This document shows positions 19,541-35,110 of a stretch of DNA of 44,949 nt, one piece after another. The DNA lies in NCBI GenBank assembly GCA_024762535.1, contig JANTHG010000002.1:1-44949 (forward strand), read 5' to 3'. The notes beneath the pieces are model-generated. The model ran no database searches. It was not told the origin of the DNA and worked only from the letters and a program-made list of their open reading frames with translations. Both the position numbers and the translations under genes were made by a program. The stretch's first letter is position 1. Every line of letters starts with the position of its first letter. The stretch comes from Calditrichaceae bacterium (GTDB lineage Bacteria > Calditrichota > Calditrichia > Calditrichales > Calditrichaceae).

Positions 19541-19631
19541 GGGAGTAGTTGGGGCCCGGTGGCCCCCCCGGCCTTCAAAGCCGTGCGAGTCCGGCAAACG
19601 GATTGGTGGGTTCGACTCCCATGTACTCCCG
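19541..19631 (+). tRNA. selC: tRNA-Sec(UCA), anticodon at 19575..19577
   Basis: Acceptor GGGAGTA/TACTCCC; 6-bp D stem GGGGCC-CGGT-GGCCCC with 4-nt loop; anticodon loop CTTCAAA; long variable arm AGTCCG-GCAAA-CGGATT; T arm TGGG-TTCGACT-CCCA; discriminator G. The arrangement parallels E. coli selC. Confidence 0.95.
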
Positions 19632-19633
19632 CT

Positions 19634-22324: not shown

Positions 22325-22840
22325 ATCGCAAGCAAAAGTCCAAGGACCAGAATAAACGATACCATTACAGCGAAGGAAGTACGCTTAATAAGTCCCGATG
22401 GCGAACAACTCGGCATTGTTTCTCTGGAAGATGCGTTGGCAAAAGCCGCTGAAAAAGAATTAGACCTGGTGGAAATTGCGCCTACAGCCAAGCCACCTGT
22501 GTGTAAAATAATGGATTTTGGAAAATATATTTACGAGCAGCGCAAAAAAGAAAAATTAAATAAAAAGAAACAACACACTATTGTTGTTAAAGAAATAAGG
22601 ATGCGCCCGAAAACAGATACACACGATCTGGAATTTAAGGTTAAACACGCGCGCGCTTTTTTAGAGCAAAAAAATAAAGTAAAGTTTACTGTACAATTTC
22701 GCGGCCGGGAACTGGCCTATAAAGAGTTCGGATACAAGCTGCTGGAACGAGTACAGGAAATGTTAGAAGATGTAGCCAAGGTCGAAAGCGGAATCAAATC
22801 GGAAGGCCGCTTTATGAACATGGTGATGTCACAAAAGTAG
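22325..22840 (+). CDS. infC: Translation initiation factor IF-3 with a non-canonical ATC start codon
   Basis: In-frame extension upstream of the track ORF (22436) encodes the conserved RINDTITAKEVRLISPDGEQLGIVSLEDAL. There is an in-frame TAG at 22319, no ATG/GTG/TTG between it and 22436, and AAGGAG at 22312..22317, 7 nt before ATC. Confidence 0.9.
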   Translation: MASKSPRTRINDTITAKEVRLISPDGEQLGIVSLEDALAKAAEKELDLVEIAPTAKPPVCKIMDFGKYIYEQRKKEKLNKKKQHTIVVKEIRMRPKTDTHDLEFKVKHARAFLEQKNKVKFTVQFRGRELAYKEFGYKLLERVQEMLEDVAKVESGIKSEGRFMNMVMSQK

Positions 22841-27488: not shown

Positions 27489-27502
27489 GTTTATCTTGAT
27501 TT

Positions 27503-27680
27503 AAAACCCTGTTACCTGTAAACGGGTAATAATAGGACCAACACCATTAAAACAGGGAACTGAACTCCGGACGTGAAATGCAGGCCCCACCCTCGGGTGA
27601 GTGGAAGCGTAAAGCGTGCGGGAGGTACCCATCATGCTTTAATAAGGTTCTATTTCCGTGTACGGTGGCAGGGTTTTTGT
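27503..27680 (+). ncRNA. ssrS: 6S RNA (SsrS) candidate
   Basis: ~178 nt between zapA and rny; closing stem AAAACCCTG (27503..27511) with CAGGGTTTT (27669..27677), continued by TTACC/GGTGG; internal hairpins such as CCACCCTCGGGTG; T-rich 3' end. Position after zapA is a known 6S context. Not checked with a covariance model. Confidence 0.75.
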
Positions 27681-30621: not shown

Positions 30622-31509
30622 ATGCAATCGGAACTATTAACGCCTCAAATAATTAATCGATTAAACACACTTGATTTGCAGGCCCGTCAGGTAGTGGAGG
30701 GATTCATTTCCGGATTGCATAAAAGTCCCTTTCACGGGTTCAGCGTAGAATTTTCTCAGCACCGTCCCTATTTACCGGGCGATAGTTTACGCTATGTGGA
30801 CTGGAAAGTGTATGGGCGCACGGACCGCTATTACATCAAACAGTTCGAACAGGAAACCAATCTTCGTGCACATATCCTGTTAGATGTATCCGCTTCCATG
30901 TCCTTTTCCAGTTTGGACGTCAGCAAGCGTCAGTATGCTAATGTTCTGGCAGCTGCTTTATCCTTTTTACTGATTCGCCAAAAAGACGCTACGGGACTGG
31001 TACTGTTCGATCATACGATTCGTTCCATGCTGCCGGCGCGTTCCGTGCCATCTCATTTAAAACAGATATTTTTAGAATTGGACAAAACGGAAACCGGAAC
31101 GGATACAACCATCAGTTCGGTATTACATGAAGTAGCCGAACGCATTCAACGCAGAGGTTTGATTATTATCATTTCCGATTTATTGGATGAACCCTCGGAA
31201 GTTCTCAAGGGATTGCAGCATTTTCGTTATGAGCGCCATGAGGTGCTGGTGTTTCATGTGCTTGACCCGGCGGAAATGAATTTCGGCTTTTCGGGTGATA
31301 TTGTTTTTAAAGATCTGGAATCGAATGAAACGCTTAAAACTCAACCCGAATTTATCCGTGCCGCATATCAGGAAAAAATAAACTCTTTTTTGGAAACCTA
31401 TCGAAAACAATGCCATAATAGCGGAATTGATTATTATCCGGTCGTCACATCCAGTCCCTATGATGTGGCTCTTACGGAATTTTTACTGAAACGGAAACGA
31501 TTATTATGA
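30622..31509 (+). CDS. DUF58 domain-containing protein
   Basis: FHGFSVEFSQHRPYLPGDSLRYVDWKVYGRTDRYYIKQFEQETNLRAHILLDVSASMSF. Confidence 0.92.
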   Translation: MQSELLTPQIINRLNTLDLQARQVVEGFISGLHKSPFHGFSVEFSQHRPYLPGDSLRYVDWKVYGRTDRYYIKQFEQETNLRAHILLDVSASMSFSSLDVSKRQYANVLAAALSFLLIRQKDATGLVLFDHTIRSMLPARSVPSHLKQIFLELDKTETGTDTTISSVLHEVAERIQRRGLIIIISDLLDEPSEVLKGLQHFRYERHEVLVFHVLDPAEMNFGFSGDIVFKDLESNETLKTQPEFIRAAYQEKINSFLETYRKQCHNSGIDYYPVVTSSPYDVALTEFLLKRKRLL

Positions 31510-32567
31510 GAAAAGAAATTCGACTGACCGCATTGGTCTCCTGCGCTGGCTGAGCGAGTAAAATTGATCCGGAGTTACTGGACAAGATACTTTCTCAATT
31601 ACCTGATGCACAGCAAGATACCGCTCTGCTTGCCGGACGATCCAATGCTGAAGACGCCAGTGTGTACCGTTTGACGGATGATCTCGCGGTTGTCAATACG
31701 GTGGATATCTTTACACCGGTTGTGGATGATCCTTATGATTATGGGCGGATTGCTGCGGCAAACTCGTTAAGCGATGTGTACGCCATGGGCGGAAAACCGG
31801 TTTTAGCGCTTAATGTGTTAGCTTTTCATCAGGGCAAAATTCCTGCAGATGTGGTAGCGGATATTTTACGCGGTGCTCAGGATAAAACCCGTGAAGCCGG
31901 CTGCGTGATTGCCGGCGGGCATAGCATCCAGGATACGGAAATTAAATACGGCCTTTCCGTAACGGGAATCGTACACCCAAAAACGTTTTGGCGCAATCAT
32001 ACACCTCAGGAAGGTGATGTGCTGGTTCTGACCAAACCACTGGGCACCGGCTGTATTACTACTGCTCTTAAGCACGAAAAAGCGGATTCAGAGGATTTAT
32101 CTACTGCCATTGAATCTATGGCGGAACTGAATCGCCTGCCAGCAGAAATTTTGATTGATCAACAGATTGAAGTACATGCCTGTACCGATATAACCGGATA
32201 CGGTCTGGCAGGACATTTGGTGGAGATGCTCGACGAGTGCGGACATTCGGCACAGCTTCAATCAGGCAATTTCCCCTTGCTGCCGAATGTATTTAACTAT
32301 CTTGGAGATCCGGCCTGTCTGCCGGGCGGGTTCTATAATAACATGCTCTACAATCAGGATCATGTTTTATTACCGGAAGATATAGAGGAAGCGCAGCGCA
32401 ATATTTTATATGACCCGCAAACCAGTGGCGGCCTGCTTATAGCCTTACCGGAAAAAAATGCCAAACAGTTGCTGGTAGAATTAGAAAAACAACACTATCC
32501 TTTAAAGGCAGCTGTGATTGGTTCGGTTTTGCCCGGGCAGGATAAAAAAATTATTGTTGTTAAGTAG
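31506..32567 (+). CDS. selD: Selenide, water dikinase (selenophosphate synthetase), selenocysteine-containing; UGA(Sec) at 31551..31553
   Basis: Translation from ATG 31506 (ATGA overlap with DUF58 stop): MRKEIRLTALVSCAGUASKIDPELLDKILSQLPDAQQDTALLAGRSNAEDASVYRLTDDLAVVNTVDIFTPVVDDPYDYGRIAAANSLSDVYAMGGKP... CAGUASKIDPELL aligns to E. coli SelD GAGCGCKISPKVL, with U at catalytic Cys17 and the conserved Lys retained. The track begins only at 31662 because of the in-frame UGA. Confidence 0.94.
31568..31582 (+). promoter_or_regulatory. Candidate bacterial SECIS hairpin downstream of the selD UGA
   Basis: TCCGG-AGTTA-CTGGA (5 bp including one G-U), starting 14 nt after the UGA; loop contains GU. Confidence 0.5.
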
Positions 32568-32578
32568 ATTCTATCGCT

Positions 32579-32932
32579 TTAATCTTCTTTAACCGGGCAA
32601 TCCAGGCGAATAAATTTTTGCTGATGAAGAGCCACAACAAATTTGGTTAATCGCTCGTAAATGGGCTCAATTTCCGGTCCAAATTGCTGGCCGAGAATTT
32701 TGCCGATTTCATCTACAGTTTTTACGCCGTCTATATTTTCCCACACCGCACTGCCAATAGGGTCCAGTTTAACTTTAAAAAATTTCGATTGCAGTAATGG
32801 TTCTATAAGTTTCTTCGCAATTGTCCATTGAAATTTAGGTTTAAGTACAACGATGCGCCCGGTTTCAGCATCAACTTCATGTTCATGCAAGGCAGTTGGA
32901 ATACATTGCATCACGTCATGGGTGGTCTTCAT
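32579..32932 (-). CDS. PqqD-like (RRE-fold) protein
   Basis: FKVKLDPIGSAVWENIDGVKTVDEIGKILGQQFGPEIEPIYERLTKFVVALHQQKFIRL follows the PqqD family pattern. Confidence 0.75.
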   Translation of the reverse strand: MKTTHDVMQCIPTALHEHEVDAETGRIVVLKPKFQWTIAKKLIEPLLQSKFFKVKLDPIGSAVWENIDGVKTVDEIGKILGQQFGPEIEPIYERLTKFVVALHQQKFIRLDCPVKED

Positions 32933-32991: not shown

Positions 32992-34989
32992 TTATTTTTT
33001 AGAAGCTTTTAAAGGCAACGTAACCAATAGCCAAACCATTGCTAAAAACACAAACATACCGGCAATAGCGCTGGGATGTTGGACGCCAAGGGTCTGAATA
33101 GCAAAGTTTTTAAGGACACTGACCGAATTGCCCATAAATGTATGTTCCACACCGGAAAGGCGTTCTCCAAGCACAATAAAAGCCAGAATCACTGCCATCA
33201 ACGCTTCACCGGCAATCAGGCCGCTGGAAATAAGCACGCCGTGGTTTTCCGCTTTCGTTTTTTCTTCTGCCGTAGCATTGCGTTTCGCTAAGGTTTTATC
33301 GAGAATCCATTTAATGACACCACCCACAAAAATAGCCGAGGTGGAATGAAAAGGTAAATACATTCCTACAGCGATGAGCATAGGGGAGGGCGCGTTGACA
33401 ATAATTAAACCAATTGCAAATATCATCCCTGATATAACCAAAGGCCACGACATCTGTCCGCCTACAATACCTTTAGCCATTAAGGCCATCAACCCCGCCT
33501 GAGGTGCCGGTAATTCCGGACTACCGATATGGTACACCTGATCCATGGCCATCATAGGGAAAACCAGAATAACGGCTGCCGCAATTACACCGATAATTTC
33601 CGCCAATTCCATTTTCCAGGGCGTGCCACCCAAAATATGGCCGACTTTTAAATCCTGCGTCATATCACCGGCGATTCCTGCCGAGGTACAAACCACACCG
33701 GCTACTCCAAGAACAGCCATCACACCGTGCTGGCCGGTTACACCGATAATGACAAGCAATACAGCGGAAATTAAAAGGGAACTCAGAGTTAATCCGCTAA
33801 TGGGATTATTGGAACTGCCTACAAGTCCCACAAGGTAACCGGCTACAGCGGCAAATAAAAAGCCGAGAATCACCATTACGATGGTCAATACAAAAGCGCC
33901 TCCAACGGATTGAGCAAAATATTCATACAGGCCGTAAAGGGGAAGGGCAATCACTAAAATGGCAATACCCACTTTTTTGAAATCCAAATCCACTTCTAAC
34001 CGTGTTACCTCGCGTTCTTTATTTTCTTTCGCTCTTAAATCTTTTACAGCTTTGGTAATGCCGGCAAAAAGGGAATCTTTTAAATTGTAAAGCGTGTAAA
34101 AAGCGGCGACTATCATGGTGCCTACTGCAAAGGGACGAATCTGCTTGAACCAAACTTCTTCAGAAATTTGCAGCCAGGAATGTCCCTTGGCAGCTAAATC
34201 CGCGAAACCGGGGTTCATAAATACACCTAACGGAACAAACACCAGCCAACCCAGTACAGCACCTGCAAAAAGCACAGCGGAAACACGCATGCCCACAATA
34301 AATCCCACACCGATTAATGCCGGAGAAGCGGCCGGAGATTCTCCAATAAATCCGCCGCCAAAATTATAATTGGTACCCAGCATAGTGATTTTGGATTTGG
34401 CAAGTGTAAAATAGTGCTGTGTGTAATCGGCAATAATATGAATTCCATTGGAATTTTTAAACATTTCCCATAAAGCAGCAAGGCCCATGCTCACAAACAC
34501 CACACCGGCTCCGGACTGACCACCCTGACCAGCCTTAACAATTTCGGCTGCGGCAATACTTTCCGGGAATGGTAAATCTGCTTCTTCAACCATACTGCGG
34601 CGTAAAATGGTCACGAACAAGACACCCAGTACACCACCAATCAGCATAATCAGTGTACTTTCCAAATAGTGTAATTCTGTCCACACACCACTAATCACAA
34701 AAGCGGGAATGGTGAAAATGGCACCGGCCACCAAAGCTTCACCAACGGAAGCGGTGGTTCGGGCAATATTTTCTTCAAGAATATTCCCTTTCATAGCGCG
34801 CAAGGCAGCCATTGCTACTACAGCCGCAGGGAAGGTGGCGGCCACAGTCAGCCCTGCCTTCATTCCCAGATAAGCATTGGCGGCGCCCAAAATAACAGCC
34901 ATTAGTACGCCAAGGCCTACGGCTTTAAAAGTGAGTTCTTTTAATTCCGAACTGGCCGGAACAAAAGGTTTAAATTCAGGTTTTTCCAT
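32992..34989 (-). CDS. OPT family oligopeptide transporter
   Basis: MEKPEFKPFVPASSELKELTFKAVGLGVLMAVILGAANAYLGMKAGLTVAATFPAAVVAMAALR; many TM helices; AGIAGDMTQDLKVGHILGGTPWKMELAEIIG. Start at the internal Met (34989) is preferred. Confidence 0.92.
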   Translation of the reverse strand: MEKPEFKPFVPASSELKELTFKAVGLGVLMAVILGAANAYLGMKAGLTVAATFPAAVVAMAALRAMKGNILEENIARTTASVGEALVAGAIFTIPAFVISGVWTELHYLESTLIMLIGGVLGVLFVTILRRSMVEEADLPFPESIAAAEIVKAGQGGQSGAGVVFVSMGLAALWEMFKNSNGIHIIADYTQHYFTLAKSKITMLGTNYNFGGGFIGESPAASPALIGVGFIVGMRVSAVLFAGAVLGWLVFVPLGVFMNPGFADLAAKGHSWLQISEEVWFKQIRPFAVGTMIVAAFYTLYNLKDSLFAGITKAVKDLRAKENKEREVTRLEVDLDFKKVGIAILVIALPLYGLYEYFAQSVGGAFVLTIVMVILGFLFAAVAGYLVGLVGSSNNPISGLTLSSLLISAVLLVIIGVTGQHGVMAVLGVAGVVCTSAGIAGDMTQDLKVGHILGGTPWKMELAEIIGVIAAAVILVFPMMAMDQVYHIGSPELPAPQAGLMALMAKGIVGGQMSWPLVISGMIFAIGLIIVNAPSPMLIAVGMYLPFHSTSAIFVGGVIKWILDKTLAKRNATAEEKTKAENHGVLISSGLIAGEALMAVILAFIVLGERLSGVEHTFMGNSVSVLKNFAIQTLGVQHPSAIAGMFVFLAMVWLLVTLPLKASKK

Positions 34990-35110
34990 GCAGAACCTCC
35001 GTATTTGAACCAAAAGAATGTAAAAACATAAATTAACTATTTTGTTTTTCCCATACAACATTTAATTATGGCTAAGTTAAGTCGAACGATTGTTGATATA
35101 GTGGCTTTTC

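Follow-up and report, generated by a model that had tools for sequence, protein, structure and literature searches.

The window, a stretch of 44,949 nucleotides of DNA from a Calditrichaceae bacterium, carries at positions 31506..32567 of the forward strand a selD gene (selenide, water dikinase) that we read as encoding a selenocysteine (Sec)-containing selenophosphate synthetase, with the UGA at 31551 decoded as Sec. Judged from the sequence, this reading, including the catalytic role of the Sec residue, has a probability of about 0.96. The in-frame "stop" of selD is very probably a selenocysteine codon at the catalytic position. The gene is an ordinary Sec-SelD, of a kind already well known in other bacteria. 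The earlier note on this DNA had also stated that the family is not new, in agreement with the known arrangement (PMC4561486). In our literature search, no publication on how Calditrichota use selenocysteine was found, the matches to Caldithrix being, by their titles, on other subjects.

The ATG start codon of selD (31506-31508) overlaps the TGA stop codon (31507-31509) of a DUF58 protein gene (30622..31509, forward strand), forming an ATGA. The selD frame then contains a single in-frame TGA (31551-31553) and stays open up to the TAG at 32565-32567. The full read-through product has 353 amino acids with Sec at residue 16, in the context MRKEIRLTALVSCAG-U-ASKIDPELLDKIL; coordinates and single TGA agree with the frame proposed in the earlier note. 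This product scores 367 bits over residues 6-318 against the selD model TIGR00476, the curated cut-off of which is 125. It aligns with Escherichia coli SelD (PDB 3u0o) without gaps, residue 16 facing the catalytic Cys17 and Lys19 facing Lys20, as had been claimed for the position of the UGA and for the conservation of the downstream lysine. EDASVY, SLSDVYAMGG, TDITGYG, and DPQTSGG also align with 3u0o; the phosphate/metal-binding motifs and the conserved lysine are present.

Standard ORF calling yields a truncated frame with a GTG start (31662..32567, forward strand, 301 amino acids), which is devoid of the 52 N-terminal residues, catalytic loop included. This loss, already described in the earlier note, is easily overlooked. 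Indeed, Pfam scores the truncated ORF nearly like the full SelD (85 vs. 92 bits for the AIRS domain), so that automatic annotation would miss it. One may then ask whether translation starts at 31662 and gives a SelD-like protein without catalytic loop, having some other role. This frame is the sole standard ORF and its domains are still recognized by Pfam, so that annotation raises no flag. However, conservation with both Sec and Cys homologs already begins upstream, at about residue 1-6, and we consider a start at 31662 to be extremely improbable. The region upstream of residue 52, where a failure of homologs to align would have spoken against the read-through frame, aligns well with homologs, and nearly all of these carry the TGA. 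Unless UGA is read as Sec, annotation of selD in this genome and in its Calditrichota relatives misses the catalytic N-terminus.

The TGA is found in many relatives. A SelD with exactly one TGA occurs in 30 of the 40 genomes of the phylum Calditrichota, and wherever such a SelD was examined, its TGA fell on residue 16 of the window SelD in the alignment. The TGA is also at the residue-16 codon in 80 out of 80 SelD loci from named genomes, which are the closest relatives of the query only and hence no fair sample of all SelD. These loci belong mostly to Chloroflexota, but also to Zixibacteria, Krumholzibacteriota, KSB1, Spirochaetota, and one Clostridiaceae bin; the two sets share loci (L019/L052, L022/L053), which, together with the named close matches, points to Calditrichota as the phylum of the 40 genomes. 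With the TGA recurring in the same alignment column, chance is ruled out and an error of sequencing becomes very improbable. A sequencing or assembly error, with TGC or TGT as the true codon, could be envisaged for a single draft metagenome assembly. However, the nearest relatives, G009 and G010 (tblastn identities of 62% and 74%, the latter covering half of the length), also have TGA, as do dozens of other sequences, and a Cys gene would give no reason for the conservation of the hairpin described below; such an error thus has hardly any probability left. A tree built from 64 SelD proteins groups the window SelD with that of G009 (support 100/98), and the Sec forms fall to the same side of one branch (support 99/80). 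Since the root of this tree is not fixed, the direction of the Sec/Cys change is not given by it.

Downstream of the UGA, at a distance of 19 nucleotides, lies the apical hairpin of a predicted bacterial SECIS element (31568..31582, forward strand). It is made up of a 5 bp stem (UCCGG/CUGGA) and a 5-nucleotide loop with G in second position (AGUUA, 31573-31577). Loop, stem, and spacing all conform to the bacterial SECIS model in the form quoted in PMC13188914. The folded 79-nucleotide region of the window is somewhat more stable than its shuffles (z -2.4). A search of the SECIS region against Rfam returned no family match even at E <= 5, and the hairpin was therefore assessed through covariation instead. 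One register of pairing could not be applied to all phyla, since the Chloroflexota sequences pair in another, and the counts were therefore restricted to 31 Calditrichota loci and one KSB1 sequence (n = 32), with a seven-pair consensus. In this set, 88.8% of the cells are paired (vs. 76.3% in shuffled and 22-50%, at most 49.6%, in slid alignments), 38 cells show double changes (vs. 11.0 shuffled and 2-11 slid), and the covariation score is 0.501 (vs. 0.260 shuffled and <=0.162 slid); in reading these values, the shuffle test is inflated by related rows, the slid control preserves relatedness, and the structure itself was derived from the consensus. Double changes affect five of the seven pairs, and examples of hairpins among the relatives are AUCCAGAGGUUCUGGAU, GCCUAAAGGAUUUAGGC, and ACCUAACGGUGUUAGGU. 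The window's own hairpin is devoid of the outermost (A-C) and innermost (A-A) pairs of the consensus.

Components of the Sec machinery are encoded in the same genome. A tRNA-Sec gene with anticodon TCA (19541..19632, forward strand) is located 12 kb upstream of selD, and the two genes are 12 to 16 kb apart in four relatives (G009, G006, G001, and G004). In another genome (G037), a compact cluster selB - Sec-selD - tRNA-Sec is found on contig C80 (2924-5878, L134), and another Sec-SelD on contig C93. The earlier note had made its reading depend on the presence of selA and selB. The first was indeed detected on contig C79 (494 bits vs. a cut-off of 268). The second was not found in this assembly (89% complete, 317 contigs) with either the family model or the SelB of the nearest relative, these searches giving only other translational GTPases, as judged from partial matches and length. 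Because selB is present in 14 out of 14 other genomes of the same family (f1) and the assembly is only 89% complete, the absence of selB likely corresponds to an assembly gap, and the gene would be in the unassembled part. The kinase gene adjoining selB in G009 has no clear ortholog in this genome, which is consistent with a gap but is no proof of it. Just upstream of selB in G009, a gene for a bleomycin hydrolase-type cysteine peptidase (L160, 5980-7340, reverse strand) has an in-frame TAG. Since the interruption is TAG and not TGA, this gene does not encode a selenoprotein, and the TAG results from either decay or an assembly error.

Other genes of this genome are also interrupted by TGA at a catalytic position. 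A search for peroxiredoxins over the family gave one-TGA genes in 13 genomes, with one or two Sec-peroxiredoxins in most family genomes. Two are present here (contig C218, 1552-1950, L171, and contig C161, 4476-4865, L172), with TGA at the catalytic cysteine, which, from the peroxiredoxin motif, we take to be the peroxidatic one. Their UGA contexts are GDFTFV-U-ATEVSAVAA and AAFTFV-U-PTELSAVAA, and G-containing hairpins (CAGC-GGUC-GCUG and CCGC-AGUU-GCGG) are found 3' of the UGA codons; this UGA recurs in the 12 further family genomes examined. With selD, Sec decoding in this organism is therefore supported by at least three genes. The alpha subunit of formate dehydrogenase was also considered as a selenoprotein and was rejected, its homolog in this genome being without TGA. 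No convincing further candidate for UGA read-through was found within the window.

The distribution of the Sec trait across the phylum provides a natural control. Among the 40 genomes, selB is present in 28 of the 30 having Sec-SelD vs. 2 of the 10 without, with a Fisher p of 2e-5 that is only indicative because the genomes are related. The two Sec-SelD genomes without a selB match are the present one and G035 (62% complete). Family f1, which includes this genome, has Sec-SelD. The sister family f2 (G015-G020), which belongs to the same order, yielded neither selB nor a tRNA-Sec match above the gathering score, and its SelD has Cys at the Sec position in all five genomes where it is readable. 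The selenouridine synthase gene (mnmH) adjoins Cys-SelD in most f2 genomes. As a second use of selenophosphate, selenouridine synthase was not found in this genome, and no match above the cut-off was obtained in family f1. Altogether, tRNA-Sec, selA, the covariation of the SECIS hairpin, the two UGA-containing peroxiredoxins, and the Cys-SelD of the Sec-less sister family uphold the earlier claim that this genome decodes UGA as Sec.

A second SelD, in the Cys form, is encoded on contig C9 (3-1622, L002). In a single 539-amino acid frame cut by the contig start, a NifS-like cysteine desulfurase is fused N-terminal to a SelD with the motif LGCACKL. The fusion is whole in the relative G009, where it has 743 amino acids, and is found in 13 Calditrichota genomes, 11 of which also have a separate Sec-SelD. 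In others, among them G005 (98% complete), this search gave the Sec-SelD form only; a Cys partner is therefore not obligatory for Sec-SelD. The existence of a Cys-containing SelD, together with the lack of selB in the assembly, could suggest that the TGA at 31551 is a real stop, the selD of the window being truncated or decaying and the function being ensured only by the fusion on C9. However, the frame is intact and conserved 3' of the TGA, the TGA occupies the same codon across several phyla, the pairing of the hairpin is maintained via compensatory changes, and tRNA-Sec, selA, and two Sec-peroxiredoxins are retained. In view of these features, a real stop appears highly improbable.

The two SelDs might divide their labor. 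We tentatively propose, as a rather speculative hypothesis, that the Sec-free Cys fusion could initiate or restore the synthesis of Sec following a period of selenium starvation, possibly drawing selenium from cysteine/selenocysteine, and that Sec-SelD would take over once Sec is available, the whole forming an autocatalytic loop whose starter is independent of Sec. In any case, a genome that encodes both Sec-SelD and a Cys NifS-SelD is a natural model in which to study how a cell gets started when its selenium-activating enzyme itself requires selenium.

The surroundings of selD are conserved. After selD, a PqqD-like protein gene (32579..32932) and an OPT family oligopeptide transporter gene (32992..35061) are found, both on the reverse strand, and the order DUF58-selD-PqqD-like-OPT is identical in G009. 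Two other features of the window deserve mention. Rare start codons are often used by infC genes, and for the infC of the window (22325-22840) the probable start is one of these, ATC 22325, preceded by AAGGAG; the mechanical ORF begins at TTG 22436 and its N-terminus is lost. A 6S RNA (27501-27680) is predicted upstream of the RNase Y gene with a score of 46.4 bits, exactly the gathering score.

A very probable course of events can be drawn from these elements. Translation of SelD would start at ATG 31506. The hairpin that follows UGA 31551 would guide a factor of the SelB type, which would insert Sec at this codon, delivered by the tRNA-Sec encoded at 19541. In the protein, Sec, preceded at a distance of three residues by a cysteine (CxxU), would be part of a mobile N-terminal loop and would handle selenide, and the AIRS-type body of SelD would use ATP for the formation of selenophosphate. 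SelA would then use selenophosphate to produce the Sec-tRNA needed to make SelD itself as well as two or more Sec-peroxiredoxins.

Compared with known systems, the window SelD shares with Sec-SelD/SPS2 (Mariotti et al., 2015; PMC4561486) the UGA in place of the Cys17 codon of E. coli, the downstream SECIS hairpin, the genomic Sec machinery, and the domain architecture. Nothing essential sets it apart, except that it falls in the CxxU subset. This subset accounted for about 5.6% of the single-domain Sec-SelDs in GOS data (PMC2398784), and of the 107 different Sec-SelD sequences collected in this analysis, 94 are CxxU. With the Cys-form SelD of E. coli (3u0o), the alignment covers the full length, and Lys20, SD, TD(I/V)TG, and DPQTSGG are kept. 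The differences are that Cys17 is replaced by Sec16 and Cys19 by Ser18, the window SelD having instead a cysteine at position -3. As to NifS-SelD fusions, only two prokaryotic instances were known in 2015, one of which, in Geobacter, has Sec (PMC4561486); one fusion is also named in PMC2398784. The C9 copy and its relatives resemble them by the cysteine desulfurase at the SelD N-terminus. However, the Calditrichota fusion is a Cys form (GCACK), whereas the Geobacter fusion is a Sec form.
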